Positions 30,254 to 50,700 of a DNA stretch of 64,000 bases are shown here, piece after piece (the first letter of the stretch is position 1; the number at the start of each line of letters is the position of its first letter). The DNA is from Microbacterium sp. cx-55. Lineage in GTDB: Bacteria; Actinomycetota; Actinomycetes; Actinomycetales; Microbacteriaceae. The stretch covers positions 2,232,001 through 2,296,000 of the forward strand of contig NZ_CP088261.1 of NCBI RefSeq assembly GCF_021117345.1, read 5' to 3'. A program made the translations under genes and the position numbers. The notes beneath the pieces are model-generated. The model had not been told where the DNA came from. It did no database searches and was given only the letters and a program-made list of their open reading frames with translations.

Positions 30254-30350
30254 GACCTCATCGTCGCACCGGATGGGGCGAAACGGGCCCGTTCGCCGGG
30301 GTAGGTAGGTACGTGAGCAAGAATGCCCGCGAGCCTTCCGAATCCGGAGC

Positions 30351-30383
30351 GATCCCCGCGTCTGCGCGGCGGGGCGCGGGATC
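30351..30383 (-). terminator. Possible terminator of the MarR gene
   Basis: GATCCCCGCG pairs with CGCGGGATC with one bulge around a GC-rich loop. It overlaps the first two bases of the MarR stop codon. Confidence 0.35.
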
Positions 30384-30936: not shown

Positions 30937-30979
30937 GGCGCCCTCCTCCGCGGTGTCGATCCTGAGATAGCTCACAGTT

Positions 30980-30990
30980 TAACTAAGTTA
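30980..30990. promoter_or_regulatory. MarR-type operator
   Basis: TAACTAAGTTA is a perfect 11-bp dyad (TAACT-A-AGTTA) in an unusually AT-rich patch between the MarR start and the gene upstream. It overlaps the stop codon of the DUF255 gene. MarR boxes in actinobacteria often have this TTAACTNAGTTAA form. Confidence 0.65.
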
Positions 30991-32850
30991 GCGAGCTTTC
31001 GGCTCCGTCTCCACTGCCAGATCCGCCGGGACGTGAACCGGAAGCAGACACACGAAGCCGCGGCAGTCGTAGGCGGTGCTCCGCCCGCCCACCGCGGTCC
31101 GGTCCGCCAGCAGCGAGAACCCCGCCTCCGCCCACGCCGCCGCCCCCGCGACATCGACCCGCACCACGGTGTCGGCGTCGGCGGCGAACGCCGCCCGCGC
31201 CAGCGGATCACCCGCAGCCTCGGCGACGACCACGACGATCTGTCGCGGAGCCGTGGTCAGTCGCGCTGCCACGCCCAGCAGCGAACCGTGCGCGAACGGC
31301 TCGGCGACGGCCCGGGCGATCCCGTCTCGCACGATGCGCTCCGCGATCCCGCGGTACTCCTCACCGACTCCGAGCTCCCAGAGGGTCAGCGCCGCATCCG
31401 CCACCGCCGACGCACCGCCGGGGCGATCGATGTCAGCGTCATCGACGGGCGGCGCCGCGAGCCCGGCGAGCACCGGATCTCGGCCGCCGGGGGTCCGGAG
31501 CGCGCCCTCGACGATGCAGAGGTCAACCAACCGGCGGGCCTCGCGCGCATACGCCAGCTCGCCCGTCACCATCGCCAGCCGGAGCAGACCCCCGGCGTAT
31601 GCGCCGTAGTCCTCGAGCGTCGCGGATGCGGGCGAGCGGATCTCATCCAGCGATGCCCGGCGCAGGAAGCCGTCGGCGTCGACGTTGGCCTCCTGCACGG
31701 CGTCGACCGCCTGCCGCGCGGCGGCGATCAACGCCGGAGCATCCCGGCGAGCGCCCGTCCTCGCGAGGGCGGCGATCGCGGAGCCGTTCCAGGCCGTGAC
31801 GACCTTGCCGTCCACGGCGGGCGCAGCCAGGGACACGCGCTCCGCGGCGCCGGCCAGGTAGAACCCGCCCTCCGTCCGGCGCTCGTCGATGACGGACTCC
31901 GAGTCCTGAGCGGCGCCGAACCCGCCCGACGCGACCTGCAGCGTGTCGAGGAGGAACCCCGCGACACCCTCCGCGATGTCACCCCGGCCCGCGTCGAGGG
32001 CGACCTCAATGAGTCCCGCGTTGTCGGTCAGCATCCGCTCGTAATGGGGCACGGTCCAGTCCCGACGGGTGGCGTAGCGGAAGAACCCGCCGTCGACCGA
32101 GTCGCGCAGCGGTGAGTCGGCCATCGCGTCGAACGTCCGGGCGGCGAGCGCCGCCGCATCCGGTCGCTCAGATCGCAGACCCCGCTGCTGCAGAAAACGC
32201 AGCACCGGAATGGTCGGGAACTTCGGGGTCTCGATCGGGGCGTCGGATGCGGCGAAACCGCCGAAGATGCGATCCTCGCGCGCCGCGATCTCGTCGACGA
32301 GGGCGGCGAGATCCGCCCCGGAGGGGAGCGCCGACGAGGACTGCACCTCGGCGGCCGCGGCGACGAGCGCACGCTGCAGAGCCTCCGCGGTCTCCCCGAC
32401 CGCATCGCGCCGTTCCGTCCACGCCTCCGACACCGCGGCGACGACGTCGCGGAACGCCGGGTGCCCGGCCCGCGCCTCCTTCGGCCAGTAGGTGCCGGCG
32501 AAGAACGGGCGCCCCGCCGGCGTCGTGAACACCGACAGCGGCCAGCCCAGGTTCGGAGTGAACGCGGATGCTGCCGCCATCATCACCGCATCCACCTCCG
32601 GATGTTCCTCCCGATCGACCTTGATCGCGACCAGATCGCGGTTCATCAGGGCCGCGGTATCGGCATCCGAGAACGACTCCGCGGCCATCACGTGGCACCA
32701 GTGACAGGTCGAGTAGCCGATCGAGACGAGCACCGGCACATCGCGTCGCCGCGCCTCTGCGAAGGCTTCTTCGCCCCACGGATACCAGGCGACGGGCTGT
32801 CCGGCGTGACTGCGCAGGTACGGGCTGGCGGATGCGGAGAGCCGAGACAT
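30988..32850 (-). CDS. DUF255 thioredoxin-fold / six-hairpin protein (YyaL, SPATA20-like)
   Basis: 620 aa. N-terminal thioredoxin-like domain with [26 protein letters not shown] and [10 protein letters not shown]; the CxxC cysteines are 49 and 52. The remaining about 400 residues form an (alpha/alpha)6-like barrel with [21 protein letters not shown] and [13 protein letters not shown]. The biochemical role of this family is not settled. ATG 32850 has TACCCT exactly 6 nt upstream, so a leaderless mRNA is likely. It diverges from the kinase operon across 126 bp. Confidence 0.92.
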
Positions 32851-32976: not shown

Positions 32977-34116
32977 GTGGCGCAAAGACTGCCCGCTGCG
33001 CCTCCGGTTCTGCCCGGGTTCACGTACGTGCGCCCGCTCGGGACCGGCGGCTTCGCCGACGTCTTCCTGTTCGAGCAGGACATGCCCCGGCGACCCGTCG
33101 CGGTCAAGGTGCTTCTCGAGGACCTCGTCGACGACGGTCTGCTCCGGATGTTCAACGCCGAAGCCGATGTGATGGCCCGGTTGAGCGCGCACCCCTCGAT
33201 CTTGACGATCTACCAGGCCAGCATCTCCTCCGACGGTCGCCCGTACCTCGTGATGGAGTACTGCCCGAGCTCGCTGGGCTCGCGGTACCGGCGCGAGGTC
33301 ATTCCGGTCGCGGAGGTGCTCCAGGCGGGCATCAAGATCGCGTCGGCACTCGAGACCGCGCACCGTTCGGGGCTGTTGCACCGCGACATCAAGCCGTCGA
33401 ACCTGCTGATCACCGCGTTCGGAGCGCCGGTGCTCGCCGACTTCGGCATCGCGACGGCCGTCGGTGGCCGCGGCGAAGAAGAAGTGTTCGCGATGTCGGT
33501 GCCGTGGAGCGCGCCCGAGATCATCGACGAGCGCGTCGCCGGTTCGGTGCCGGCCGAGGTGTGGAGCGTGGGGGCGACCGTGTACTCGCTGCTCGCGGGT
33601 CGGAGCCCCTTCGAACGCGCCGGCTCCGGGCAGAACTCCCGCGACCAGCTGAAGACCCGCATCCGGCGTGCCGCGTACACGCCGATCGGGCGCTCCGACG
33701 TGCCGGCCAGCCTGGAGGCCGTGCTGAGCCGGTCGATGCAGCGCGACCCCGCCGCACGCCAGCCGTCCGCCGCGCAGTTCGCGTACGAACTGCAGCTCGT
33801 CCAGCACGAGCTCGGACTCCCGCACACGCCGATGGAGGTCGCGGTCGACGAGTGGGCATCGGCCGGCGCCGCGGTCGACTTCGCCGACGACCGCGCCCGC
33901 GGTCCCGTGCGACCGAGCGTGCAGTACGAGTCCCGTCGCCCCGAGCGCGTCCGCGGCGCCGGCGCGCACCGCCCCGACGAGGGCACCGTGCTCGCGGGCG
34001 CCGAACCCCGCGGACGGCGTCTCTCCGGCGGACTCATTGCCGCGATTGCGGTCGGCGCGGTCCTGATCGTGGCCGCCGCGGTCGTCGTCACCGCCATCGT
34101 CGTGGGAGGTCGCTGA
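32977..34116 (+). CDS. Membrane-anchored serine/threonine protein kinase
   Basis: 379 aa. Kinase domain about 15-275: Gly loop GTGGFADV at 22-29, Lys44 in VAVKVLL, catalytic HRDIKPSN with Asp137, ADFG and SAPEI. A flexible juxtamembrane stretch leads to one TM (about 351-375) with almost no extracellular tail, so no PASTA or other sensor. Just before the TM lies DEGTVLAG (Thr337), which matches the acidic-x-Thr-x-Leu motif repeated eleven times in the last protein of this operon. GTG 32977 is preferred, with AGGGGG upstream; no ATG precedes the domain. First gene of an eight-gene operon. Confidence 0.92.
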
Positions 34117-34117
34117 C

Positions 34118-37100
34118 GTGTCGAGCTCTTCCGACAGCCCCCGCATCCCGCGCCGCACGTGGATCATCGGCAGTGCGATCACGGCCGTCCTCGCGCTCGT
34201 CGTGACCCTCGCGGCGGTCTGGCCCGGGTTCGACGCCCAGCAGACGCCCCCCGACGACGGCACGATCTGGGCCATGCAGTCGGGCGAGGGCCGCCGTTAC
34301 GCCCGCGTGAACACGACGGTGAACGAGATCGACACCGTCAAGCAGGTCGAGAACCCCAGCGGAATCGTGCAGAACGCGAACCGCCTCTTCGTCTACGCCG
34401 AGGGCGACACCCGATTCGCCGACGTCGACATGGCCACCCCGGTCGACCTCGACGCCGACGCCGAGGACGCCTTCCAGAACACCCCCGCCGGCACGGTCGA
34501 CGTCGTCTCGCAGGGAGACGTCATCGTCTACCGGACCGACGGCGGCGCCGTGTACGCCTCCTCGCTTTCTTCCGGCGCGACGGCGATCTCGATCGACCCC
34601 TACGCCGAAGACGAGCCCGCCGAGGGCGAGGACCGCCGCACGTTCGTCGCATCGGCCGTCTCGGTCGGCACGGATGGCACCGTCTACGCGTACTCCGGCG
34701 CGGAGCAGCGCGTCATCCGGGCGGATGCGGTGTCCGGACGCGTGCTCGGAACCGACGACGTCACCGACGGCCCGGCCGAGGGCGCTCAGCTGAGCGCGAT
34801 CGGCGATTCGTGGGCCCTTCTCGACACCGAATCCGGCGCCCTCTGGGTGCGCGGACGCAACGAACCGCTCGAGTCCGGAACGACGGGCGGCGTGCTACAG
34901 CGCCCCACGACCGACCGGGACGACCTCTACATCGCCGATACGACCGGACTCGTCGCCGTGCCGCGCGACGGTTCCGCGCCCGAACGCGCCGACGACACGG
35001 CGCAGGGCACCCCGGCCGCGCCCGCCGAGCTGAACGGCGTCGTGTACGGCGCGTGGCTGCCCGACAGCGGCGGGGCCGGCACGCTCTGGTCGAGCGAGAA
35101 CGGCGCGTCCGACCTCGACTACCGCGGCGGCACGCTCGGCGACGAGATCGAACCCGAGTTCGTCACCAACGGCTCACGCATGATCCTCAACGAGACGCGC
35201 TCGGGATGGGTGTGGACCCTCCCCGACGGTGAGCTCGTCCCCTCGTCGCAGGAGTGGAACTCCGAGGACGACCAGCCGACCGTGCAGCAGGACGAGGTCG
35301 AGGCCGAGCGCGTCATCGACCCGAAGCCGCCGGTCGCCGTGAACGATGCGTTCGGTGTGCGCGCGGGCCGAAGCGTGGTGCTCCCGGTCATGCTCAACGA
35401 TCACGATCCGAACGAGGACGTGCTCAGCGTCGTGGCCGCCTCGGTCGAGGGCCTCGATCCCGCGTTCGGCACGGTGGGCACGGCCAACGAGCAGCAGGAG
35501 CTCGTCGTCCGGGTGTCTCCCGAGGCCACCGGCACGGCCACGTTCCGCTACCGCGTCACCGATGGCACGACGACCGACGGACTGACCTCCGAGGCCGCAA
35601 CCGTGACGCTCACAGTCGCCCCCGACACGCAGAACTCCCCGCCGGTCTGGTGCGGCGTCGAGGGTTGCCTCTCCACCTGGCCGAACCCCCAGGTCGTGCC
35701 CGGCGGCACGGTGGCGGTCAACGTGCTCGAAGGCTGGGTCGACCCCGACGGCGACCCGATCTACGTGTCGTCGGCGGTGAACCAGTCCGGCATCGGGTCG
35801 CTCGCGCTCGACCCGCAGGGCACCGTGACGTTCCAGCATCCGAACCCCAACGCCACCGAGGCGCAGAGCATATCAATCGCGGTAACCGTGTCGGATTCGC
35901 GCGGGCAGTCCGCCGACAAGCCTCTCGAGATCTCCGTCACCCCGAGTCCGCAGCTCACGGCGCAGTCCTTCGCCGCCGTCGGATCGGCGGGTCAGCCCAC
36001 CACGATCGACGTGCGGCCGCATGTCACGGGCGTCAAGGGCGGTCTGTCGATGCGTTCGGCGAACACCCTCGACCAGGGCGGCGCCGACATCGCGGTCAAC
36101 AGCGTCGCCGGCACCTTCCAGTTCTCCGCGCCGAACCCGGGTTCGTACCTCGTGCAATACGTCGTGGCCGATGAGATCGCGGAGTCGACCGGCACCGTCC
36201 GCATCACGCTCGTGGACCCGGCGCAGACGCAGATCTCCACCCCGCCGCTGACGGCCTTCGTCCGCCCGGGCGAGGACGCCACGGTCGATGTCATCTCCGC
36301 CGTGGCGAACCCGGCCGGACTCGTGCTGCTCGCCAGCGACGTGCAGACGAACCCGGATGCGTCGGCCACCCTGACCGTCGACCTCGTCGGCCAGAGCATG
36401 CTGCGCGTGGCCGGCGCGACCGACAACGGTCAGCCCGGCGTGCTGGGCGTCATCTCGTACACCGTCTCGGACGGTACCGGCAACGGGTACACCACCACCT
36501 CCGGCGAGGTCACGGTCGTGCTGCTGCCGGCCGCCGAGGCCGAACCCCCCATCGCGGTCGACGACGCGGTGACCGTGCGTGCGGGCACGCAGATCGACAT
36601 CCCGGTGCTCGACAACGACACCGCGCCGGCCGGCGCCCTGTTCGCGATCGACGCGTCCGCCATAACGAACGAGTCCGGCGAGGGCCTCGCGTTCGCGACC
36701 GGTCGCCTCCTCCGCTACCTCGCTCCGTCGGCGCCCGGGTCGTACGCGGTCGGCTACACGATCTACCGCATGGGGTTCCCCGACATGACCGACACGGCGA
36801 CCGTGACGGTCACCGTGCTGCCGGATGAGGCCAATACCGCTCCCGTGCCACGGACGCTCGTCGGCCGCGTCCTGAGCGGATCGACCGTGTCGATCCCGTT
36901 CGATCGCTTCGCCGTCGACCCGGATGGCGACGCCGTGACGCTCGACCGCATCGTGGCGCAGCCCGAGCGCGGATCGGCGACGGTTTCCGCCGAGGGCGAC
37001 GCGATCGTGTACACGAGCAACGCCGGCGACAGCGGGCAGGTGTCATTCACGTACCAGGTGCGCGACGCGCAGGGCGCGACCGGCACGGGCGAGGTGCGGG

Positions 37101-40100
37101 TGGGCGTGCTCGACGCCGAAGCCGATCCGAGCCCGGTCACGTACAGCGACTACCTGCAGGTGCAGGCCAACGACGACGGTGAAGCCGTGGTCCGGCCCGC
37201 CGACAACGACATCGACCCCTCGGGCAGCAGCCTCGAGGTCATCGACGTGCGCCCGAACGCCGAGGTCGGCACCGCCGAGTACCGCACCATGGAGGAGATG
37301 CTCGACGGCATCGATGCCAACGAGGTCCGGCTGCTCTCCGGCACCCAGCTCGGCACATACTCCTTCGCGTATACGGTGCGAAACGGCAACGGCGACACCG
37401 CGATCGGCCTGATCGTGCTGAAAGTCGTTCGCGACCCCGTGCCCGACTACCCCGTCATCCGCGACACGACGCTGACCGTCGAAACGCGCGAGGACTTCCC
37501 CGACGGCGTCGACGTGCTGAGCGGGAAGGTCTCGTGGAGCGGCGGCGACGCAGCATCGCTGTCACTGTCGCTCTGGAACGCCCCCGACGGCATCGAGGTC
37601 GACGGTCGACGCATCTCGGGGCGAATCCCCGAGCGCACCCTCCTCATCCCGTTCCAGGTGACCGGTACGTCCTTCGACGGCCGCGAGGTCACCTCCTACG
37701 GCTTCCTCCGCGTCCCTGGTACCAACGACCTACAGTTGACGCTGCGAAACTCCGCCGCGACCGTCGAGGTGGACGAGCGGGCCAGCGTCGACATCGACAT
37801 GCAGCGCTCCGTCGCCCTCCCCGCGGGAACCGACATCGAGATCGACGGCTCCCGGATCGCGACGGGCGGCGCCCGCGCCGAAGCGGGGTGCGCGCTCACG
37901 TCCGGCACGACCGTGCGGTACACCGCAGGCGCCGGGGCCCCGTGGCGCGACACGTGCACGATCCCCGTGCGCCTGGTCGGCCAGGACGACTACACCTTCC
38001 TCACCGTGCAGGTGCAGATCATCGCGGAAGACCCCCAGCCCGAGCTCCGCCCGGCCTCCCTCACCGTCAGCCCCGGGTCATCGGCCACGTACGACCTGAC
38101 CGACATGACGACGTGGGCGGGCACCGAGGACTGGGCGGCGCTCAGCTACGGGTTGCGGTACAGCGGCGACCAGTTCACGGTCGAGCAGGCCGGCAGCCAG
38201 GTGACGGTCACGGCCAAGGACGCCTCCCGCCCGGGCCGCCAGGAACCCGTCACGATCACGCTGCCGAGCCACCCCGACACTCCCCCCGCGACGCTGGCCC
38301 TGACCGTGGGACCTGCCCCCTCCACCCTGCCGAAGGGTGCGAGCCTGACGCAGACGTGCTCGCAGTCCGCCGGCAACAGCTGCACGATCAACGTCATCGG
38401 CGCCGGCGGCGAGGTCAACCCGCTGCCGGGCACCCCGCTGCGCCTCATCTCGGTCGGCGGCGGCGCCGGCGGCAGCTGCACGGGTGTCACGTTCTCGGTC
38501 GCGAGCGCCACCGCACTTCAGGCGAGTTGGGCGGCGGATGCGGAAGGCACCCGCTGCACCGTCGGCTTCACCGTCGAGGACGCCCAGGGACGCCAGTCGA
38601 GCGGAGACCGCAACGGCCAAGTGACCCTCGACCTGCAGGGCTACCCGAAGGCGCCGAACGCGGTTACGCAGACGGCGTTCGGCGACAAGTCGATCACGCT
38701 GCGCGTGGATGCGGGCGCCGCCGGCAACGCCTACCCGGCGCTCCAGGGCTTCCGGATCTTCGACGGCGGCCAGCAGGTCACGACGTGCGCCTCGAACGGT
38801 GTCTGCCAGCCCTTCACGGTCGGCGCAAACGGCGACCAGCGCACCTACGAGGCGCGGGCCTACAACAGCGTCGGCGACTCCCGGGCCGGCGTCACGGCGC
38901 GCGCCTGGGCCTACCGCTCCCCCACCGTCGGCCAGGTTACGGCGGAGCCCATCTACCAGGAGGGACGCACGAGCAACGACTCGGGCGTCGTCCGCATCCG
39001 CATCCAGAACAGCGATCCCGAGGTGCGCACGTACGAGGTGACCGGCGCCGGCGCCCCCGTGCGGAAGTCGGGCAGCGAGTACACCGAGCTCGCCGTTCAG
39101 CTCCCCGTCGGGGGAACGACCATCACGGTGACGCCCACGAGCAACAACGAGGCGCCCGACGGCAGCGGCTCCGTCGGCTCTTCGGGTCAGGCCAGCGTGA
39201 ATGTCGCGGGCCTTCCCCGCACCGGCGACGTCTCGGTCGCCGCGGAGGCGAAGAACGCGATCCGAGTGAGCGATGCCCCTCTCGATCGGAACGGCAGCAG
39301 CCGCGCGAACGAGATCATCTACGTCGCCGTTCCCCGCGGTGCGGACTTCTCCTGCTCGGTGGGCTCCGACGGCACCGGGCTGCGCGTGTCGGGCGGCCAG
39401 GAATCGTCGTCGTCCACGATCTCCGGACTCCAGGAGAACCGCGAGTACACCGTGGGCGCCTGCGTCAGCAACGGTTTCGGAGCCGCGAAGACCGGAACAG
39501 CAACCGGCTGGGCCTGGAACCAGGCCGGAGCGCCGGTCCCCCAGAACCCGACGTACGAGATCCCGGATGGGCGCGGCAACGGCAACGGCACGTATCTCGT
39601 GCGGTCGGCACCCAACGTGAACGCGCCGCTGGGCTACGAGACCGTGTTCTTCGGACACCAGGGAGAGTCCACCCAGTGGCAGCAGCCCGCGATCGGTGCC
39701 GAGGGTTCCATGCAGGTGAAGTTCTGCGTGCAGGGCTCGAACCTCTCGCGCTGCGGCGCACCCGTCCGGATCACGGCTGCCGATGCGTCGCGCGCGAAGC
39801 AGGTGCAGCTCGCCGATCCCGCCCTGACCACCTGCATCGTCGGATCGCGGCTCCAGGCCGCAGTCGGCCAGAACCCCGGCGGCCTGGGGACCCTGGCCAT
39901 CAAGTCGACCGATCCCGCTCCGCGCTTCTACAGCGAGGGGATTCTCGGCGGCGTCTTCGCGTCCGAGCTCGATCCCGACCCGAATGATCCGCTGAAGGTG
40001 CCCAACGGCACGTCCCGTGCCACGGCACGACTCGCATTCACCTGGACGGACCCCGCCGCCCAGTACGGCACGCTTGGATTCGACGTGACGTATCGCGGAT

Positions 40101-40159
40101 GCACCGGCAGCGTCGCTCCCGAGCCCACTCCCACGAACACCCCGCCCACCGGAGGCTAA
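34118..40159 (+). CDS. Giant membrane-anchored surface protein with propeller-like, Ig/cadherin-like and Fn3-like domains
   Basis: 2013 aa. A short Arg-rich cytoplasmic start and one TM (about 15-37) give a type II topology with the bulk outside. Residues about 40-395 show repeated beta strands such as [18 protein letters not shown] and [12 protein letters not shown], as in PQQ/WD-type propellers. From about 404 come Ig/cadherin-like repeats: [28 protein letters not shown] (about 809) and [13 protein letters not shown] (about 930). Fn3-like domains follow from about 1508. Cysteines come in pairs, suggesting disulfides. No sorting signal; the tail is Pro/Thr-rich. GTG start lies 1 nt after the kinase stop. 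Function unknown; adhesion or wall sensing is plausible. Confidence 0.85.
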
Positions 40160-40163
40160 TTCC

Positions 40164-41129
40164 ATGACCGTCACCCCCGAGCAGACGACCTGGTTCCAGG
40201 AGACGTTCGGCGCGCTCGTCGAGAACGTCGAACAGGTGGTGCTCGGTAAGCGCCACGTCATCGAGCTGGCGTTCACCGCGCTCGTCTCCCAGGGCCACCT
40301 GCTGCTCGAGGACTTCCCCGGCACCGGTAAGACCGCGCTCGCCCGTGCGATCGGTCAGACGATGCAGGGTCAGAACTCCCGCATCCAGTTCACTCCCGAC
40401 CTGCTCCCGGGAGACGTCACCGGCATCACGGTCTACGACCAGAAGCGCGGCGAGTTCGAGTTCCACTCCGGACCGATCTTCGCGAACATCGTGCTCGCCG
40501 ACGAGATCAACCGGGCGAGCCCGAAGACGCAGTCAGCGCTCCTGGAGGTCATGGAGGAGGGCCAGGTCACGGTCGACGGCGTCTCGCGCAAGGTTCCGGT
40601 GCCGTTCCTCGTCGTCGCGACGCAGAACCCCGTCGAGCAGGCCGGCACGTACCGCCTCCCCGAGGCGCAGCTCGACCGCTTCCTCATGAAGACCTCCCTC
40701 GGCTACCCCGACCACGCCGCCACCGTCCGCATCCTGGAGGGGTCCGGGAACGGGCGCCGCGAGGTCAACGCCGTCATCACCCCCGAAGCGGTGCAGACGA
40801 TGTCGGCGATCGCGCAGGACGTCTACCTCAACCCGCTCGTCCTCGACTACATCTCGCGGGTCGTCGAAGCCACGCGCCAGGCGGCGCAGGTGCGTCTGGG
40901 CGTCAGCGTCCGCGGCGCGCTCGCGCTCACCCGCGCCGTCAAGACCTGGGCGGTCGCCCACGGCCGCGCCTACGTGACCCCCGACGATGTGAAGGCCCTC
41001 GCCGAGCCCGTGCTCGCACACCGCCTCATTCTGGACGCCGAGGCGGAGTTCGACGGGGTGACGCAGGGGGCCGTGATCGGGCAGGTCATGCTCGAGGTGA
41101 ATCCCCCGACCCAGCGCGAGTCCGCGTGA
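40164..41129 (+). CDS. MoxR-family AAA+ ATPase
   Basis: 321 aa. Walker A GTGKT at 53-57, Walker B and MoxR signature VLADEINRASPKTQSALLEVMEE, sensor 1 VATQNPVEQAGTYRLPEAQLDRF, and sensor 2 region RGALALTRAVKTWA. MoxR proteins remodel or activate partner proteins and usually pair with DUF58/VWA proteins, as here. GGAGG lies 8 nt before the ATG, 4 bp after the giant gene. The stop overlaps the DUF58 start by 4 nt (GTGA). Confidence 0.95.
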   Translation: MTVTPEQTTWFQETFGALVENVEQVVLGKRHVIELAFTALVSQGHLLLEDFPGTGKTALARAIGQTMQGQNSRIQFTPDLLPGDVTGITVYDQKRGEFEFHSGPIFANIVLADEINRASPKTQSALLEVMEEGQVTVDGVSRKVPVPFLVVATQNPVEQAGTYRLPEAQLDRFLMKTSLGYPDHAATVRILEGSGNGRREVNAVITPEAVQTMSAIAQDVYLNPLVLDYISRVVEATRQAAQVRLGVSVRGALALTRAVKTWAVAHGRAYVTPDDVKALAEPVLAHRLILDAEAEFDGVTQGAVIGQVMLEVNPPTQRESA

Positions 41130-42490
41130 CGAACGACACCTCGTCCCGCATCACCCGCATCTCGTCGACATCGACGTCGACGGCGGGGTCGAGCACGCGC
41201 ACGCGCTACGACACGTCGAGCCAGACGACCGTCATCGTCGTCGGCGGCATCCGCTTCTGGCGCCGCATCCGGCGCGCCGCGAAACAGAGCGCGACCGCCG
41301 TCGGGAACACGGTCACCCCGGGCGGATGGCTGCTCGTCGGCGCGGCGGTGCTCGGACTCGGACTCGGTCTTCCGCTCGGGTGGATCGAGTTCGCCGTCGC
41401 CGGCTTCGTCGCGCTCATCCTCCTCGTCTGCGCCGCCCCCTTCCTCTTCAGCTCGCGCGCCTACGACGTGTCGCTCGGCCTCGCGCACGACCGTGTCGTC
41501 GCGGGAAGCGAAGTGGCCGCATCCCTCCGCGTCACGAACGTCGGGTCGGGCGTCGCGCTCCCCGGCCGCGTCGACGTGCCGATCGGCGCGGGCCTCCTCG
41601 ACGTGCCGATCCCGCTCCTGCGCAAGGGCGCCGTCCACGACGAGCAGCTCTCGGTGCCCGCGCTCCGTCGCGGCGTGCTCGATGTCGGGCCCGCCCGCGC
41701 CGTGCGCGGCGATCCCCTCGGCATCCTCCGCCGCGAGGTCGTCTGGGAAGACGTGCACACGCTCTACGTGCACCCGGTCACGACCTCCATCCCGAGCACG
41801 GCGACCGGCTTCGTGAAAGACCTGGAGGGAAACCCCTCCTCGCTCGTCGTCGACGCCGACATCTCCTTCCACGCGATCCGCGAGTACGCGCCCGGCGACT
41901 CCCAGCGCCAGATCCACTGGAAGTCGACCGCCAAGACCGGCACCCTGATGGTGCGCCAGTACGAAGAGACCCGTCGGTCGCGGATGGTGATCGTGCTCGC
42001 CTGCGGCGACGAGGAGTTCGCGAACGACGACGAGTTCGAGCTCGCCGTGAGCGCCGCCGCGTCGCTGGGCGTCCGCGGCATCCGCGACGGCCGCGACGTC
42101 TCCATCGTCGTCGGCGGCGAGGTGCCCGAGTTCGCACGACGTGCGGTACGCACCTCCCGCGACCTCACAACCATCACCGCGCGCACCCTCCTCGACGATC
42201 TCGCGGGACTCGAAAAAGGCGAGCGCATCACCCCGCTCGGCGACGTCGCTAGCCTCGCGGTCGAAGGGCACTCCGACGTGTCCATCGGCTTCCTCGTCTG
42301 CGGTTCGACCCCCACGCCCCGGATGCTGCAGCACGCGGCCCTCGCCTTCCCCGCCGACGTCGGCGTCGCGGCTCTCATCTGCGACCCCACGACCGAGCCC
42401 GGGTACCGGACGCTCGGGTCCACCTCGATCGTGACGATCGGTCTGCTCGACGACCTCCGGCACATCCTCGCCCGGAGCGCGAAGTCGTGA
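41126..42490 (+). CDS. DUF58 membrane protein
   Basis: 454 aa. A low-complexity Ser/Thr-rich cytoplasmic tail (residues 1-35, including SSTSTSTAGSSTRTR) precedes two TM segments (about 69-110). The DUF58 core reads FHAIREYAPGDSQRQIHWKSTAKTGTLMVRQYEE, followed by a VWA-like part. DUF58 proteins work with MoxR. The Ser/Thr-rich tail is an obvious candidate target for the operon kinase (inference). GTG start and stop each overlap the neighbouring gene by 4 nt. Confidence 0.93.
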   Translation: MTNDTSSRITRISSTSTSTAGSSTRTRYDTSSQTTVIVVGGIRFWRRIRRAAKQSATAVGNTVTPGGWLLVGAAVLGLGLGLPLGWIEFAVAGFVALILLVCAAPFLFSSRAYDVSLGLAHDRVVAGSEVAASLRVTNVGSGVALPGRVDVPIGAGLLDVPIPLLRKGAVHDEQLSVPALRRGVLDVGPARAVRGDPLGILRREVVWEDVHTLYVHPVTTSIPSTATGFVKDLEGNPSSLVVDADISFHAIREYAPGDSQRQIHWKSTAKTGTLMVRQYEETRRSRMVIVLACGDEEFANDDEFELAVSAAASLGVRGIRDGRDVSIVVGGEVPEFARRAVRTSRDLTTITARTLLDDLAGLEKGERITPLGDVASLAVEGHSDVSIGFLVCGSTPTPRMLQHAALAFPADVGVAALICDPTTEPGYRTLGSTSIVTIGLLDDLRHILARSAKS

Positions 42491-44997
42491 GCGTCGACGC
42501 CGCCGGCCGTCGTGCCCGCGCCCGCCGCGACGCCGGGCGACGCGAGCGCGACCTCACGTTCACGATCGGCAACGTCGCCTTCATCGACGGACTGCTGGTC
42601 GTCGGCGCCGCCGCCTCCTGGACGATCTCGCAGAGCCTGTGGTTCGTGCTGCTCGCGGGGGTCGGCATCGCCGCTGCCACCGCGATCGCGCTGGTCGGGG
42701 CCATTCGCGGCTGGGCGTGGTGGCTGGTGGCCGCCGTCACCGCCGGCGTCTACGTCGTGGCGGGGGTTCCGCTCGCCGCGCCCACCATGATCACCGACCC
42801 GGCGACGATCCTCGGCGCGGTCGTCGGTGTGCTCACCGCGCCCGTCACCGGGTGGAAGAACCTGCTGACCCTCGAGCTGCCGATCGGCATCTACCAGGCG
42901 ACGCTCGCGCCGATCCTGCTCCTCATCCTGGCGCTCGGCGTGCTCGCCCATTCGCTCGCCCTGCGCGCGCCGCGCGCGTGGGTGCTGGCCGCCCCGACCG
43001 CGCTCCTTCTCACCGTCTTCGGCGTGGCCTTCGGATCGAGCGCCGTCTCGGGCGCATTCACGGTCGGCCCGTGGCGCCTGACCGGCGCATGGGAGGCGAC
43101 GGTCGGTCTCGCGGCGCTCCTGGTCGCCTTCGGCTGGTATCTGTGGCGCAGCATCCACAGCCGTCGGTCCGCGCTCCGCGCCGCACGCAACGCCAACGGC
43201 GCCCGGCTCACCGGACGCGCGAACCGCACGCTCGGCACGCGCATCGCCCTGTCGGCCGGGATGCTGGTGGTCGCGCTTCTGGCCGGCGTGCTCGTCGCCC
43301 CCTGGGCCATCGCCGGCAGCACCCGTGACGTCATCCGCACCGCCGTCGACCCCGAGCTGCGCGTCCGCGAGGCCCTCACCCCTCTCGCCGACTACCGCAC
43401 CGCGTTCACCGACGACCGCTACGACCAGGTCATGTTCACCGTGTCCGCCGACGAGTCCGTGGACCGCATCCGGCTCGCGACGCTGCCGTTCTACGACGGC
43501 CGGGTGATGCGCGCGACCGACCCCCTCACCGGCACCGCCGGCGACACCGCGTTCACGCGCGTTCCGGCGACGCTCACCGGCGACAGCGGTCAAGAGGTCA
43601 CCGCCGACATCCGCATCGGCGCCTACTCGGGCATCTGGGTGCCGACGGCCGGCGACCTCGTCTCGATCGACTTCGACGGCTCCTCACGCGCCGCTCTTGC
43701 CGACGGGTTCTACTACAACAGCGACGCAGCGATGGGCGTCGAGCTGGCCGACCCGGGGCTGCAGGACGGCGTCGCGTACGAGCAGATCGGCCGGGTATCG
43801 GGCACGGTCCGCGACCCCGGCACTCTGACGCCCGCGCTGTCGAAGCCGGCCGTCGACCCCGCGTACGTTCCGGAGAGCCTGATCTCCTGGATCGAGACGC
43901 AGGATGCGCCGACGGGCGGTGCGGGTCTCGCGGAGCTGATCCAGCGGCTGCGCGCGCGCGGACTTCTGAGCCACGCTCTGTCGATCGATCCCGCGACTCC
44001 CCCGACGTGGATGGGCGATCTCGGCCAGTACACGTTCGAGCCGAGCCGCGCCGGCCACTCGACCGACCGCATCGGCGCGCTCTTCACCGCTCTTCTCGAC
44101 AAGCAGAACGAGGTCGGCGGCACAGACGACGCGCAGCTCGTCGCCGCGTCGGGCGATGATGAGCAGTTCGCCGTCGCCGCCGCGCTGATCGCCGACCAGC
44201 TCGGCTTCCCCGCCCGCGTCGTGCTCGGCACGCGCCTGTCCACGACCGACGACTCCTTGTCGACGTGCGAGGACGGGGAATGCACGAGCGGGGACCTCGC
44301 GGCCTGGATCGAGGTGGCGGATGCCGACGGCACCTGGACGGCGATCGACACGAGCCCCCAGTACGCGGTCTCGCTCTCGCCCGACATCCAGCAGCGTCGC
44401 GACCCGCAGAACACGACCGAGGTCGAGCCGGAGCAGGCCGACACGGTGCTCCCTCCCGAGGCCGACCCGGCCGACTCCACGAATCAGGAGGAGGAGGAGC
44501 CGAACGCGCCCGTCGACCTCGCCTGGCTCTGGGCCACGCTCCGCATCTCGGGCATCGTCGTGTTCGCGCTGCTGATCCTCCTGCTGCCCGTGTTCACCGT
44601 GCTGATGGCGAAGCTGATGCGCCGCCGCGCTCGCCGCGAATCCCCGGATCCGCTCGACCGGGTGGTCGGCGGCTGGGAGGAGTACGTCGACACGGCGGTC
44701 GATCACGGAAAGCAGCCTCCGCAGGCGGCCACGCGCACCGAGACCGCCGAGGCGCTCTCCACAGGCATCGGATCGGACGGGAGTCGCCTCGCCGTGCTCG
44801 CCGACCGGTCGGTCTTCGCGCCGGTACCGCCGACAGACGACGACGGCGCGCGGTTCTGGGAGCTCGTTGACGCCGAACGCGCACGTCTGCGCGACGAACT
44901 CGGCTGGTGGGGCAGATGGAAGGCGCGGCTCTCGCTGCGCTCCTTCGCGCGCGGCGTGCGTCAGCTCGCCGCCCGGACACGGGCAGGTGGGCGATGA
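42487..44997 (+). CDS. TgpA-like membrane protein with a degenerate transglutaminase domain
   Basis: 836 aa. Six or seven N-terminal TM segments, an extracellular region about 275-675, a further TM about 678-705 and a cytoplasmic tail of about 130 residues. The transglutaminase core is recognisable by QLGFPARVVLGTRL and WTAIDTSP. At the catalytic Cys position the sequence is SGDDEQFA (555-562), with no Cys; at the usual HAW the sequence is AAW (605-607). Only the Asp (621) remains, so cross-linking activity is unlikely. GTG start overlaps DUF58 by 4 nt; stop overlaps PP2C by 4 nt (ATGA). Confidence 0.88.
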   Translation: MSVDAAGRRARARRDAGRRERDLTFTIGNVAFIDGLLVVGAAASWTISQSLWFVLLAGVGIAAATAIALVGAIRGWAWWLVAAVTAGVYVVAGVPLAAPTMITDPATILGAVVGVLTAPVTGWKNLLTLELPIGIYQATLAPILLLILALGVLAHSLALRAPRAWVLAAPTALLLTVFGVAFGSSAVSGAFTVGPWRLTGAWEATVGLAALLVAFGWYLWRSIHSRRSALRAARNANGARLTGRANRTLGTRIALSAGMLVVALLAGVLVAPWAIAGSTRDVIRTAVDPELRVREALTPLADYRTAFTDDRYDQVMFTVSADESVDRIRLATLPFYDGRVMRATDPLTGTAGDTAFTRVPATLTGDSGQEVTADIRIGAYSGIWVPTAGDLVSIDFDGSSRAALADGFYYNSDAAMGVELADPGLQDGVAYEQIGRVSGTVRDPGTLTPALSKPAVDPAYVPESLISWIETQDAPTGGAGLAELIQRLRARGLLSHALSIDPATPPTWMGDLGQYTFEPSRAGHSTDRIGALFTALLDKQNEVGGTDDAQLVAASGDDEQFAVAAALIADQLGFPARVVLGTRLSTTDDSLSTCEDGECTSGDLAAWIEVADADGTWTAIDTSPQYAVSLSPDIQQRRDPQNTTEVEPEQADTVLPPEADPADSTNQEEEEPNAPVDLAWLWATLRISGIVVFALLILLLPVFTVLMAKLMRRRARRESPDPLDRVVGGWEEYVDTAVDHGKQPPQAATRTETAEALSTGIGSDGSRLAVLADRSVFAPVPPTDDDGARFWELVDAERARLRDELGWWGRWKARLSLRSFARGVRQLAARTRAGGR

Positions 44998-45836
44998 CCG
45001 AGGGAATCGTACTGGTGACGGGCGCACGCACCGATGTCGGACGCGTGCGGGAGATCAACGAGGATGCGGTGCTGGCGCAGCATCCGGTGTTCCTCGTCGC
45101 CGACGGCATGGGTGGGCACGAGGCCGGCGAACTCGCGAGCGCCGAAGTCGTGGCGGCGTTCCAGCCGTTGGTCGGGCGTCAAGACGTCGAACCCGCCGAT
45201 GTGGTGGATGCGGTCGCCGCCGCCCATGCCGCGGTCGCCCGCCTGTCGCGCACGCACGCGCGCGGCGCCGGCTCCACCGTGTCGGGGATCGTCGCGGTCG
45301 TGCAGAACGGCGTGCACAGCTGGTTGGTCGTCAACATCGGCGACTCACGGGTGTACCGCCTCGTCGGCAGCACCCTCGAGCAGCTGACGGTCGACCACTC
45401 GGTCGTGCAGGAGCTCGTCGACGAAGGTCGCATCACGCGCGCGGAGATGTCGACCTACCCGGGACGCAACGTGATCACCCGCGCGGTGGGCGATCAGTCC
45501 AGCGCGGCCGACTACTGGCTCGCGCCGATCGTCACGGGTGAGCGCCTGCTGGTCTGCTCCGACGGACTCTCGAACGACCTGAGCGATGAGGCGCTCCGCG
45601 CGGGCCTGTCGCTCGGCGGGTCGGCACAGCAGACGGCGCACGGGCTGGTCGACCAGGCACTCGCGCGCGGTGGTCGCGACAACATCAGCGCGGTCGTCGT
45701 CGACGTGCGATCGGGCGGGCTCGCCCAGCGCGCCGACGAAGTCACCGGCGGGTTCGCCACGAGTGCTGAGGCCACCGTGCATACGATCGACATCGACACC
45801 CATACCTCCGAACGACAGCGAGCCCGCCGTGACTAA
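44994..45836 (+). CDS. PP2C-family serine/threonine protein phosphatase
   Basis: 280 aa, cytoplasmic, with the full metal site: REINEDAVL, FLVADGMGGHEAGELAS, GSTVSGIVAV, NIGDSRVYRL, LTVDHSVVQELVDEG, NVITRAVG, LLVCSDGLSNDLSD and RDNISAVVV. It is the expected opposing enzyme to the operon kinase. No membrane segment, unlike mycobacterial PstP. ATG 44994 overlaps the previous stop; the 3' end overlaps the FHA gene by 8 nt. Confidence 0.95.
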   Translation: MTEGIVLVTGARTDVGRVREINEDAVLAQHPVFLVADGMGGHEAGELASAEVVAAFQPLVGRQDVEPADVVDAVAAAHAAVARLSRTHARGAGSTVSGIVAVVQNGVHSWLVVNIGDSRVYRLVGSTLEQLTVDHSVVQELVDEGRITRAEMSTYPGRNVITRAVGDQSSAADYWLAPIVTGERLLVCSDGLSNDLSDEALRAGLSLGGSAQQTAHGLVDQALARGGRDNISAVVVDVRSGGLAQRADEVTGGFATSAEATVHTIDIDTHTSERQRARRD

Positions 45837-46776
45837 GCGCACCTGGTTCGACGGCGACCTTCCCGCCGTCGCCACGGATCGGCTCGCCGTGCTGGTCGGG
45901 GGCGCGGATGGTGTGCCCGCCGCCCGCCGCGTGCTGGCGATCACCGGCGCCTCCCCCGACCCGACCGAGGTCCTGGATGCCCTCGTCGCCGAGGGGATCG
46001 CGGCGGTTCCCGCGTTCGCGATCGTCGCCCTCGACGAGGGTCATCTCACGGCGTTCCTCCGTGGGCCGTTCGCCCTCCGTTTCGAAGACGGCGGGCGCCG
46101 CGTGTGGCGCGTGGACGGCGTCGGGGCGCACACCTGGCGCGAGGTCGCCGCCGAGGGCGTCACGCGCGCCTGGGCCGGCGCCCCGGGTGCCGAGCCGCGT
46201 CTCCTCGATCTCGGCACGACCCCCGAGCGGCCCGTCCGCTCCGGCCCCACCACCGCCACCGGTGTGGTGCTGCGCACCGACCCCGCCGTCCGCCGGAGCG
46301 ATCCGGTTGCGGTGCCTCCCGCGCCGGCGAAGGCGCCGGTCCGCATCCCGCTCCCGCCGGGGGTCTCCGCGCCTCCGCCCTTGCCGCACGGGATCGCCGC
46401 CCCGCCTCCCGTGCCGACGCCGCGCGCACCGCGTATCCCGCGCGCGATCCTCCTCCCCGACGGCGAGCGGGTGCCCATCGAAGGCACCCTGCTCGTGGGC
46501 CGCGGCCCCCGCACCGAACGCGTCGACGGCGAGCACCTGCCGACGCTGGTTCCGATCCCGCAGGCCCCGCGCGATGTCTCCCGCAGCCACGTGCGGATCT
46601 GGTCGGACGGAACGCGCGTGCAGATCGAGGACCTCGCGACATCCGGCGGCACGGCGCTCGTCGACGCCGGCGGCGTCGCGGTGCGCCTCATCGCGGATCG
46701 TCCGGCCGAAGTACAACCGGGCTCCGTCGCCGAGTTGCCCGGGGGCGCCCGCATCCGATTCGTGGAGGACGAGTGA
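45829..46776 (+). CDS. FHA-domain protein
   Basis: 315 aa. An N-terminal domain of about 130 residues that I do not recognise, a Pro-rich linker about 165-205, and a C-terminal FHA domain. The FHA shows TLLVGRGPRT, DVSRSHVRIW (the phospho-binding Ser-x-x-His set) and LATSGGTALVDAG. The usual Asn-Gly of the last loop is Gly-Gly here. FHA domains bind phosphothreonine peptides; the obvious partner is the Thr-repeat protein encoded next. GTG start overlaps PP2C by 8 nt and the stop overlaps the next start by 4 nt. Confidence 0.9.
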   Translation: MTKRTWFDGDLPAVATDRLAVLVGGADGVPAARRVLAITGASPDPTEVLDALVAEGIAAVPAFAIVALDEGHLTAFLRGPFALRFEDGGRRVWRVDGVGAHTWREVAAEGVTRAWAGAPGAEPRLLDLGTTPERPVRSGPTTATGVVLRTDPAVRRSDPVAVPPAPAKAPVRIPLPPGVSAPPPLPHGIAAPPPVPTPRAPRIPRAILLPDGERVPIEGTLLVGRGPRTERVDGEHLPTLVPIPQAPRDVSRSHVRIWSDGTRVQIEDLATSGGTALVDAGGVAVRLIADRPAEVQPGSVAELPGGARIRFVEDE

Positions 46777-47759
46777 GCACGCCGACGGGCGACAACGCCC
46801 CCGATCCCCTCGACGACAGCACCCGCATCGTGTCGCGTCCCGCGCCCGCTCCCGCCGCGGCACCCGAAGAGCCCGACGACGGCACGCTGCTCGTGCGGCG
46901 GCCCGCCGCGCCCGATGCGACCCCGCCACCGGTCGAGGAGCCCGACGACGGCACGCTGCTCGTGAGGCGGCCCGCCGCACCGGCCGCGCCCGAGTCCTCC
47001 CCCGACGACGCGCACCTCGCCGAGGACAGCACCCGTATCGTGGCGCGCCCCGCGACCCCGGCACCCGCCGACGAACCGGAGGACGGCACGCTGCTCGTGC
47101 GGCGTCCGGCCGCGAGCGCAACCGCGCCGGTCACCGCCGCCGAAACCGAAGACGCGACGCGTCTCACGCGCCCTCGCGCCGAGGCACCCGCTCCCGCGGC
47201 CACTCCGGCGGAACCGGCCTCCGACGACGCCACCCGCCTCACCCGGCGCCCTCCCACAGGCGACGCCACGCGCATCACCCGGCGCCCGGCATCCGACACC
47301 CCGCGCACCGCCGCGCCCCTCCCGGACGCCGACGACCGCACGGCGCTCGGCACCCGTCAGCCCGCGGAGGCAGCGGATGCGGAGCACACCCGCCTCGGCG
47401 GACGCCGCGCCGGCGCCGCGGCGCCGACGGATGCCACCGGTCTCTCGCCGCGGAGCCGCCGCTCGGCGCGCACGCGTGCCGCGAAGGCCGCGGCGGCGAA
47501 ACCCGACGCGGTCCTCGCACCGCCGCCGGTCGATGACCGCCCGATCCCGGAGCGCTACGCGATCCGCACGCGTCAGGTCGGCGCCGCCCCGCAGAATGCG
47601 CCGACCGCACAGCCCGCACTCGCCGCGGGCGACGGCGGCCTGGCCGCGCGCACGGCCCGTCGACGCGCGCTCCGCACCCGCCTGACCGTGCTGGTCTCGT
47701 CGGCCGCGGTGCTGACGCTCGGCTCGATCGTCGGCCTCGTGCTGCTCATCACCGCGTGA
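46773..47759 (+). CDS. Tail-anchored protein with eleven acidic-Thr-Leu repeats, predicted phosphothreonine scaffold
   Basis: 328 aa. Residues 1-230 are disordered and carry eleven copies of [DE]-x-T-x-[LI], with Thr at 17, 38, 61, 87, 106, 129, 154, 166, 190, 206 and 222. In ten of eleven, Arg lies at +5 (for example DDGTLLVRRP, DATRLTRRP). A basic stretch RRRALRTR and one TM (about 307-326) end the chain, so the repeats face the cytoplasm. No enzyme fold is seen. Position beside kinase, PP2C and FHA genes suggests multi-site phosphorylation and FHA docking (inference). DNA of three DDGTLLV copies is nearly identical, showing recent internal duplication. Confidence 0.8.
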   Translation: MSTPTGDNAPDPLDDSTRIVSRPAPAPAAAPEEPDDGTLLVRRPAAPDATPPPVEEPDDGTLLVRRPAAPAAPESSPDDAHLAEDSTRIVARPATPAPADEPEDGTLLVRRPAASATAPVTAAETEDATRLTRPRAEAPAPAATPAEPASDDATRLTRRPPTGDATRITRRPASDTPRTAAPLPDADDRTALGTRQPAEAADAEHTRLGGRRAGAAAPTDATGLSPRSRRSARTRAAKAAAAKPDAVLAPPPVDDRPIPERYAIRTRQVGAAPQNAPTAQPALAAGDGGLAARTARRRALRTRLTVLVSSAAVLTLGSIVGLVLLITA

Positions 47760-47787: not shown

Positions 47788-50700
47788 GTGTCCACGCCAG
47801 AACCCGTCATCTCCTACCCGCCCGAGCTGCCCGTCAGCGCCGCGCGGCACGAGATCGCGCGCGCTATCGCCGAGAACCAGGTCGTGATCGTCGCCGGCGC
47901 GACCGGTTCGGGAAAGACGACGCAGCTCCCGAAGATCTGTCTCGAACTTGGCCGCACCCGCATCGCGCACACCCAGCCGCGGCGGATCGCGGCCCGCACG
48001 ATCGCCGAACGGATCGCGAGCGAGTTGCAGGTGCCGCTCGGCGGCGCGGTGGGCTACAAGGTGCGTTTCACCGACAAGGTCTCGGCCGACACGGTCGTCG
48101 CCCTGGTCACCGACGGCATCCTGCTCAACGAGATCCACCGCGACCGGCTGCTCCGCCGGTACGACACGATCATCATCGACGAGGCGCACGAGCGCTCGCT
48201 CAACATCGACTTCCTGCTCGGGTATCTGCGCCGCATCCTGCCCGAACGTCCCGACCTGAAGGTCATCGTCACGTCCGCGACGATCGACCCGGAGAGCTTC
48301 GCCCGCCACTTCGCAGACGCGAACGGCGTGCCCGCCCCGGTCGTGGAGGTGTCCGGGCGCACGTATCCGGTCGACATCCGGTACCGCCCGCTCGTTCCGG
48401 ATGCGGTCGACCCCGATGAGCCCGACGACGACGAACCCGGCGCTCCCGCATCCGGTGACGAGGACGAGGTCTCCGCGATCGTGGCGGCCCTCCGCGAACT
48501 CGATCGCGAAGCCCCGGGCGATGTGCTCGTGTTCCTGCCGGGCGAGGCCGAGATCCGGGACGCCGCGGATGCCGTCCGTGGCGCCTACGCGAAGGACGCG
48601 GCCCCCACCGAGGTGCTGCCGCTCTACGGGCGCCTGTCGGCTGCCGAACAGCACCGGGTGTTCGAACGGTCGACCGTCGCCGGTGTGCGCCGCCGCGTGA
48701 TCCTCGCCACGAACGTCGCCGAGACGAGCCTGACGGTTCCCGGCATCCGGTACGTCGTCGACGTCGGCACCGCGCGCATCTCGCGATATAGCAACCGCAC
48801 CAAGATCCAGCAGCTGCCGATCGAGGCGATCTCGCAGGCCTCGGCGCAGCAGCGCGCCGGCCGGGCCGGCCGCACGGCACCCGGCATCGCGATCCGGTTG
48901 TTCTCCGAGCAGGATTTCGAGCGGCGGCCCGAGTTCACCGAACCCGAAATCCTCCGCACGTCGCTCGCGTCGGTCATCCTGCAGATGCTGTCGCTCGGGT
49001 TCGGCGACATCTCCGCGTTCCCCTTCCTGACCCCGCCCGACTCGCGCGGCGTCCAGGCCGCGTTCGATCTGTTGGTCGAGCTCGGTGCGGTGCAGCGCAC
49101 GCGGCAGAGCACCACGCTGACGCCGCTCGGTCGTGAGATCTCGCGGCTGCCGATCGACCCCCGTTTCGCCCGGATGCTGATCGCCGCGCGCGAGGACGGC
49201 GTCCTCCGCGACGTGCTCGCGATCGTCGCGGGTCTGTCGATCCAGGACGTCCGCGAGCGACCCGAAGAGCGGCGGGAGGAAGCCGATCGCCAGCACGCCC
49301 GCTTCACCGATCCGACGAGCGACTTCCTCACCCTCCTGAACCTCTGGAACCACCTGCGCGAGCAGCAGTCCGAGCTCGGCTCGAGCGCCTTCCGGCGCCA
49401 GTGCCGAGCCGAGTTCCTCAACTACGTGCGCGTGCGCGAGTGGGTCGACGTGCACCGGCAGCTCAGCCAGCTGATGAGCCTGCCGCGGAACGCCGGCGAT
49501 TCCGGCGGCGGGAGCGCGGATCCGGATGCGGTGCACCGCGCCATCCTCTCCGGACTCCTCTCGCACATCGGCGTGCTCGATGAGCGCGAGAAGCCGCGCG
49601 ACGGCCGCGCGGCCAAGCCGGAGTATCGGGGTGCGCGCGGCGCGCGTTTCGCCCTGTTCCCCGGGTCGGGACTGCGCAAGAAGCGCCCGCAGGCCGTCAT
49701 GGCGGCGGAGCTCGTGGAGACCAGCCGGTTGTTCGCTCGCACCGCCGCGGCCATCGATCCCGAGTGGGCCGAGCCGCTCGCGGGCGATCTGGCGAAACGG
49801 CAGCTGAGCGATCCGCACTGGTCGAAGGATGCGGGCGCCGCGGTGGCCGTCGAAAAGGTCACGCTCTTCGGCGTCGAGATCATCCCCCGTCGCCGCGTGC
49901 AGCTGGCGCGCTTCGATCGCCCGCTCGCGCGGGAGATGTTCCTCCGGCACGCGCTCGTCGAGCAGGAGTGGGATCCCTCTGCTTTCCCGAAGACGCTCAC
50001 GGCCTTCGCCCGACGCAATCATGAGCTGCGCCGCCGACTCGAGAAGGTCGAGGAACGCGAACGACGACGCGACATCCTCGCTGGCGACGAAGCGGTCTAC
50101 GCGTTCTACGACAGCCGGCTGCCCGCCGACGTCTTCGACGTGCGATCTTTCGAATCGTGGTGGCGCGACGCCGCGACCCGCACACCGAAGCTGCTGGATC
50201 TCACCGAGGACGATCTGCTCGAGAAGAACTCGCGCGCCGACGAACGCGATTTTCCGACGCGCTGGACGCAGGGCGACCAGGTGCTGACCCTGGCGTATCG
50301 GTTCGAGCCGGGTGCGGCCGATGACGGCGTGACCGCGGTCGTCCCGATCGCTCTGCTGGCGCAGATCCGCCCCGACGGCTTCGACTGGCAGGTACCCGGG
50401 ATGCGCGACGAGCTCATCACGGCGCTGCTCCGCGCGCTGCCCAAAGCGATCCGACGTCACGTGGTGCCGGCGGCCGACTGGGCCGCTCGATTCGCCGAGG
50501 ACCTGGCCGAGGCCGGACCGGAGAATCACGGCGGACTCCCCCGCGAGACCCTCGCCGCCGCGCTCGCCGCCCGCATCCAGCGGGTGGCGAACCAACCGGT
50601 GACCGCGGCCGACTTCGAGTTCGACCGTGTTCCCGCGCATTTGTCGATCTCGTTCCGCGCCGTCGACGAGCGCGGGCGCCCGGTCGGCTCCGACCGGGAT

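Follow-up and report, generated by a model that had tools for sequence, protein, structure and literature searches.

What does a bacterium control with a kinase, a phosphatase and a phosphopeptide-binding FHA protein encoded in one operon with a giant surface protein, and what is the small protein with which this operon ends? The question is raised by a locus of Microbacterium sp. cx-55 (genome of 3.27 Mb), found in the 64,000-nucleotide stretch of contig NZ_CP088261.1 analysed here (positions 2,232,001 to 2,296,000, below called the window). Eight genes, all on the (+) strand, span 32977-47759 in the order K-G-M-D-T-P-F2-R, with K-G-M-D-T as the core; they encode a Ser/Thr kinase (K), a giant surface protein (G), a MoxR-type ATPase (M), a DUF58 protein (D), a TgpA/TGM-like membrane protein (T), a PP2C phosphatase (P), an FHA protein (F2) and a tail-anchored protein with repeated threonine motifs (R). 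Coordinates and junctions, the latter being gaps of 1-4 nt and overlaps of 4-8 nt, confirm the eight-gene same-strand operon described in the first-pass annotation. The core of the operon is already known; the element that looks new is R with its threonine code. We propose that R is probably a multisite phosphothreonine platform which, read by FHA proteins, gates a machine made of MoxR, DUF58 and the giant protein.

A tail-anchored protein with repeated threonine motifs ends the operon

R is 328 amino acids long (46773..47759, +) and has no meaningful match in family scans. R homologues share the motif [DE]xTx[LIVM]xxR, present in the window protein in ten strict copies (46815..47453, +) whose threonine codons lie at 46821, 46884, 46953, 47031, 47088, 47232, 47268, 47340, 47388 and 47436. 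The protein closes with a transmembrane (TM) helix (47682..47756, +) just behind the sequence RRRALRTR, and by the positive-inside rule its N-terminal part is predicted to be cytoplasmic. The same signals recur in the 29 such proteins listed, with 3-8 Arg/Lys in the 20 residues ahead of the helix and at most 7 residues after it, so that the motif-bearing part of R should be cytoplasmic.

To place R among relatives of the operon, the window was mapped together with 75 further loci, each 20 kb long except for one of 11.4 kb, and some of the mapped regions end at contig or fetch limits; 72 of the 76 carry MoxR, DUF58 and TGM labels and were kept, and L037, L038, L047 and L048 were dropped. In a midpoint-rooted tree of MoxR, DUF58 and TGM, the R-bearing loci form one clade, clade A (30 of 31 tips, support 1.0, with L134 and the degenerate R of L133 counted among the 30 by eye). 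In clade A the last gene of the operon encodes a disordered, tail-anchored protein in which [DE]xTx(hydrophobic)xxR usually occurs 1-12 times. A criterion blind to the motif, namely a disordered open reading frame (ORF) after T with a TM helix at its very end, finds such a protein in 29 of the 30 clade-A loci with room for it and in 0 of 40 others. Clade-A R is found also in Agromyces (L034) and Demequina (L225).

A second set of 80 named loci, of which 51 were kept (14 were dropped as duplicates and 15 because a T gene was not recognised or the room was too small), gave a like result: such an ORF is present in 49 of the 51 eligible loci, and at least one motif in 47 of the 49, the composition threshold of 0.7 and the minimum room of 4.6 kb having been set after the motif counts were known. 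One member of this set, L194, matches P0020, a protein used in defining the motif. The number of motifs varies from 0 to 12. The count of kinase-fused R proteins in this set (0) rests on an HRD-type pattern and is unreliable for degenerate kinases.

The centre of the motif is strongly biased. In the 49 proteins of the second set it is occupied by Thr 193 times, by Ala 19 times and by Ser 4 times, against overall Thr and Ser contents of 7.9% and 6.6%. The first set gave Thr 128 and Ser 1, under a count that required at least one Thr motif per protein and to which one protein was added by hand. Clade-A sequences are kin, and these counts are not independent trials, so that a binomial calculation on them gives no fair probability.

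Three other accounts of the origin and range of R were discarded. Simple repeat expansion is ruled out, with motif spacings of 12-48 residues and a number of motifs, ten, far above that of shuffled sequences. A phage origin was considered, and a single R query gave no relative in viral contigs. Finally, a profile of R matched only 9 of 119 Microbacterium genomes, as if R were confined to a few of them, yet position and topology place R in nearly all clade-A loci; the profile thus under-detects a fast-evolving disordered protein.

The threonine motif in FHA proteins, kinases and phosphatases

The motif is not limited to R. T is followed in most clade-A loci by the gene for a further FHA protein, F1, with an N-terminal DUF5684 domain in 3 of 3 F1 proteins scanned. 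Just ahead of the FHA domain the motif is present in 21 of 25 F1 proteins, which were hand-picked from a list showing motif counts, and four F1 candidates outside the 25 (L034, L144, L145 and L148) show it as well. Among all FHA-like ORFs, the threonine form occurs in 26 of 45 from clade A and in 2 of 33 from elsewhere; the serine form occurs in neither group. Compared with the protein sequences of the PDB, an FHA piece from F1 gave no match at E 0.01. In five loci (L119-L123) the R module and a second kinase-like protein form a single chain; in L119-L122 this second protein is a kinase that has HRD and DFG and whose tail is the module. A related element, [DE]x(0-1)TxPx(0-1)R, is present in 17 of 22 PP2C tails from other clades, and its Ser form in none. 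Chance matches to the motif in other proteins of the operon show no threonine bias (15 Thr to 21 Ser in the giant protein, 8 to 9 in DUF58, 6 to 6 in T).

Two side observations concern these proteins. The motif-tailed second kinase-like protein of L123 (15734-17092) has neither HRD nor DFG and, by this loss, is likely a pseudokinase. The F2 linkers of other clades contain conserved threonine stretches, DHDGxT[IV] and LWGxT[IV], possibly another FHA ligand code.

Writer, eraser, reader and the envelope core

The kinase K (379 amino acids, 32977..34116, +; Pkinase E 8.7e-40) has the motifs VAVK at residue 41, HRDIKPSN at 135 and DFG at 155. It ends in a C-terminal TM helix followed by one residue, and thus has no ectodomain. 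This holds for the main kinase throughout clade A: 0-6 residues follow the TM helix in 30 of 30 first kinases, as against 42-129 in 35 kinases of other clades in which a TM helix was found (in 5 further kinases none was found). P (44994..45836, +) matches PP2C_2 at E 1.3e-8 and an Stp1-type model at E 8.1e-55, the latter under the cut-off of the model. Four of five PP2C motif patterns were found, and the fifth (SDG) is present as CSDG in the translation. F2 (45829..46776, +) joins an RsbX-like/PP2C-like N-domain (residues 1-151) to an FHA domain (202-315). The N-domain has no evident PP2C motifs, which suggests an inactive pseudo-phosphatase. The FHA domain is a sub-threshold match in the family scan; its predicted phosphothreonine-pocket residues R225, S251 and H254 are invariant in 24 F2 proteins, and its fold neighbours include OdhI, GarA and DgcB, the last with a phosphorylated N-terminal peptide. 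Kinase and phosphatase, both with catalytic motifs, thus sit in the same operon as an FHA protein. The first-pass annotation had read these genes as writer, eraser, reader and multi-site substrate; by anatomy this reading is borne out, through the kinase and PP2C motifs, the invariant FHA pocket and the confinement of R to a clade in which it is nearly universal, and the phosphorylation and its reading are predicted from sequence.

The remaining genes encode the presumed output. G (2013 amino acids, 34118..40159, +) has an N-terminal TM helix (residues 12-34), a beta-propeller base of about 7-8 blades (residues ~46-381; 34253..35260, +) and immunoglobulin (Ig)-like repeats, with Big_9 in 5 stretches. 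An AlphaFold2 model of residues 1-430 (pLDDT 85.6) and its fold matches support the predicted propeller. M (40164..41129, +) matches AAA_3 (E 3.4e-62) and AAA_lid_2 (E 7.2e-24), and D (41126..42490, +) matches PF01882 (E 2.8e-11). T (42487..44997, +; Transglut_core E 4.1e-7) has a dead transglutaminase domain: Asp558 (44158-44160) stands in place of the catalytic Cys and Ala605 in place of the His, with Asp621 retained. The catalytic Cys is missing in 73 of 73 aligned TGM-like proteins, that of Bifidobacterium (L176) included.

The operon belongs to a family that includes the PFNA operon

The first-pass annotation knew of no assigned function for this combination of genes. In a narrow sense this is wrong. 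The PFNA operon of Bifidobacterium, of at most 8 genes, has the same core order, pkb2, fn3, aaa-atp (MoxR), duf58 and tgm, followed in B. longum by prpC, a gene of no named function and fha. The cluster is described as unique to bifidobacteria, its genes are co-transcribed in B. longum, and a host-signalling role is proposed for it; B. longum Pkb2 is reported in a review to phosphorylate the MoxR of the operon, its published substrates being MoxR and 11 others, a fragment of the FN3 protein to bind TNF-alpha, with adhesion reported too, and the TGM protein is presumed to be an enzyme, a transglutaminase or a cysteine protease (PMC8430577, PMC6803598, PMC12067865, PMC10688814). A 2025 review among these sources notes that a mycobacterial moxR operon resembles the PFNA operon.

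The core of the window operon belongs to the family of the PFNA operon and hence is not new. The giant, MoxR, DUF58 and TGM proteins are homologous by profile, the core order is the same, and PP2C and FHA genes lie downstream. The window operon is, however, a member of a wider family containing PFNA rather than PFNA in the strict sense. Its kinase lacks an extracellular sensory region. Its giant protein lacks the fn3 domain of the second PFNA protein: no Pfam fn3 was found at E 0.1 in the giants of the window and L118, and fn3 was found in those of L176, L140, L153 and L163. Its FHA protein carries a PP2C-like N-domain, and its eighth gene is R, whereas L264 and L265, two PFNA-type loci of the B. 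asteroides family, have an unrelated protein of 250-255 amino acids after PP2C. This protein, gene 7 there, is repeat-like and by appearance unrelated to R; in L262 and L263 no such protein was seen after PP2C among the genes selected.

The core combination is known, but it is wider than published. Relatives of the TGM-like protein (E up to 0.001, the weakest of which may be other TgpA-like proteins) occur in 112 of 119 Microbacterium genomes and in 108 of 198 genomes of the order, covering 39 of 72 genera. Among 148 genomes sampled from the class, 12 match the first 561 residues of the giant protein, 3 of them in the Ig part only. L176, which is B. asteroides DSM 20089 (100% identical protein), has the core order K-G-M-D-T too, and TGM protein matches were found in 25 of 27 Bifidobacterium genomes, 5 of them weak and partial (E ~5e-12 to 6e-10), as well as in 35 of 41 genomes of a sister genus in Bifidobacterium's family, 1 of them weak. 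Judged by these matches, Bifidobacterium itself lies within the family. We know of no wider description: a search of the open-licence literature, by titles and abstract starts, found none of a Thr-motif protein or of a PFNA-type family outside Bifidobacterium.

Were the operon a functional unit, its kinase, FHA protein and repeat protein should not be lost at random. Among the 72 loci a kinase is labelled in 69 and a giant protein in 70; presence or absence of the repeat protein follows the clades and is not random. The set is nevertheless not rigid: PP2C is labelled in 44 of 72 loci and an F2-type FHA protein in 43, the latter label overlooking many other FHA proteins, and no PP2C was seen in the mapped stretches of one sub-branch.

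Neighbouring genes and other loci

Upstream of K, on the opposite strand, lies a DsbH/DUF255 thioredoxin-like gene (30988-32727, -); an overlapping ORF on the (+) strand (30313-32115) has no family match and is probably spurious, the DsbH-like thioredoxin being encoded opposite. A helicase-like gene of 1304 amino acids (47788-51702, +; HrpA by appearance) starts 28 bases 3' of R and may share the operon transcript; in L118 a long ORF likewise starts 28 bases 3' of R. Two further MoxR (AAA_3) genes are found in the same genome (G000:C1:2568533 and G000:C1:931705).

Among the relatives, two genomes, G094 (L035, L036, L043) and G117 (L034, L039, L040; Agromyces sp. CF514), have three paralogous giant-MoxR-DUF58-TGM loci each, every one with its own kinase and PP2C. 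In L128, L130-L133 and L135 the operon lies directly upstream of an apparent rpsL-rpsG-fusA ribosomal operon, called from sequences by eye for L132 and L133 and from ORF sizes for the others. In the stretches fetched, L038 holds an orphan giant, and L047 and L048 weaker Ig-type matches, without a labelled MoxR-DUF58-TGM set.

Discussion

How might these genes work together? The tail-anchored kinase would phosphorylate the threonine motifs of the tail-anchored R; FHA proteins (F2, and in most other members also the DUF5684-FHA protein F1) would dock onto the phosphothreonines, collecting on R at the membrane; and PP2C would remove the marks. The loaded platform would in turn gate a complex of MoxR, DUF58 and the pseudo-transglutaminase T, whose action on the propeller-based giant protein would be to assemble it, export it or pull on it. 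The composition of the motif points to its reader. Kinases generally accept serine as well as threonine. FHA domains are specific for phosphothreonine (PMC3146460). Given the preference for Thr over Ser in the motif, these two properties taken together point to an FHA reader.

Several findings weigh against this proposal. Neither in the window nor in L118 was an F1 found, PP2C following T directly, so that the reader there would have to be F2; and F2 has no motif ahead of its FHA domain in most loci. Taken over whole FHA proteins, matches to the motif pattern number 22 with Thr and 14 with Ser, and several of these fall within the FHA domain. The TxPxR form occurs in only 2 of 22 clade-A PP2C tails, and a looser acidic-T/S-Arg pattern has Ser forms too, in 6 of 22 and 8 of 22 PP2C tails. 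In sub-branch L128-L136, which mostly keeps R, the mapped regions yielded no PP2C. R is sometimes dispensable, as it is missing in L132 and degenerate in L133; in the second set L199 and L202 have no such ORF, and those of L235 and L252 have no motif. Lastly, the step from platform to giant protein draws on gene order, which is what the locus itself offers, and on the MoxR phosphorylation reported from B. longum; the published Pkb2 substrates, MoxR and 11 others, mean that the machine may be a direct target of the kinase.

Might R be phosphorylated without being read? As a decoy or buffer, competing for the kinase and serving as a sink for the phosphatase, it could set the threshold for phosphorylation of MoxR or F1 with no FHA scaffolding. 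The variable number of motifs (0-12), the five loci in which the module is part of a second kinase-like protein and the MoxR phosphorylation by Pkb2 reported in B. longum would all suit such a role, but a sink has no obvious need for Thr over Ser (193:4), and so strict a preference points to a phosphothreonine-specific reader; we consider the decoy unlikely. That R acts outside the cell, as a Thr/Pro-rich and possibly glycosylated stalk tied to the giant protein, is suggested by its disorder, its Thr/Pro/Ala-rich composition, its membrane anchor and its place as last gene of a surface operon. Its sole TM helix, however, stands at the very C-terminal end, where 3-8 Arg/Lys lie just ahead of the helix and no more than 7 residues follow, and in the fused proteins the module sits after a kinase-like domain in one chain, which makes a stalk the least credible of the readings considered here.

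Does the operon as a whole serve to sense a host or to bind cytokines, as has been proposed for bifidobacteria? Core genes and order are those of PFNA, TNF-alpha binding and adhesion are reported for the B. longum FN3 protein, and some relatives bear names that hint at animal sources (Microbacterium pullorum, M. gallinarum and Marseille isolates). Yet relatives also occur in Cryobacterium, Demequina, Glaciihabitans, Leifsonia, Agromyces and Cellulomonas, genera not known to be animal-bound, the window giant has no Pfam fn3 match and the window kinase no ectodomain. We therefore regard host sensing as very improbable. A family so broad in the order, with a shared core, suggests a general envelope function.

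Returning to the phosphothreonine platform, a more detailed picture can be offered tentatively, and we would not press it. Arrays in LAT and MDC1 are multisite phospho-platforms to which R may be likened. By this analogy R could be a membrane-tethered, multivalent phosphothreonine string that nucleates a switchable FHA cluster under the MoxR-DUF58 machine. The cluster might replace the missing kinase ectodomain in reporting the state of the giant protein, and the motif might be a dedicated code common to R, F1 and the tails of kinases, to which the element in PP2C tails is related.

Three published views would change. PFNA is not unique to bifidobacteria. The expectation that its TGM protein is an enzyme fails in PFNA itself, since the catalytic Cys is missing in all aligned proteins including that of L176. 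And host immune sensing would no longer be the best reading of its role. R, in turn, is small, confined to one clade and marked by a clear sequence code, and as a candidate substrate with many sites it makes a Hanks-type kinase as writer and an FHA domain as reader directly testable.

Among known systems, the FHA switches of GarA/OdhI and of Bdellovibrio DgcB resemble F1 in having a Thr motif and, behind it in the same chain, an FHA domain; they differ in that here a membrane protein of its own bears the motif many times over, and a kinase tail bears it too. The MoxR-vWA-beta-propeller ternary systems, in which propellers occur in vWA and third components, mostly in other phyla, have in common with the window a MoxR ATPase and a propeller component, and in the available text describing them DUF58 does not occur (Kaur et al. 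2020). The window MoxR scores 47.2 bits against the bpMoxR profile (cut-off 27), but its propeller lies on the giant protein, and D shows DUF58 alone in Pfam. The type VI secretion system (T6SS) has a threonine phosphorylation pathway whose phosphatase is PppA. In this pathway (PpkA, Fha) phosphothreonine 14 of TssL recruits Fha and activates an envelope machine (PMC3953482). Common to both are a kinase/FHA set and a phosphothreonine on a membrane component as the switch; the differences are that none of the eight window genes is a T6SS gene, that TssL has a single site where R would be a multisite scaffold, and that the machine here is a Gram-positive surface machine. By this analogy, the proposed platform would work like the Fha-phosphothreonine switch of T6SS without belonging to T6SS.

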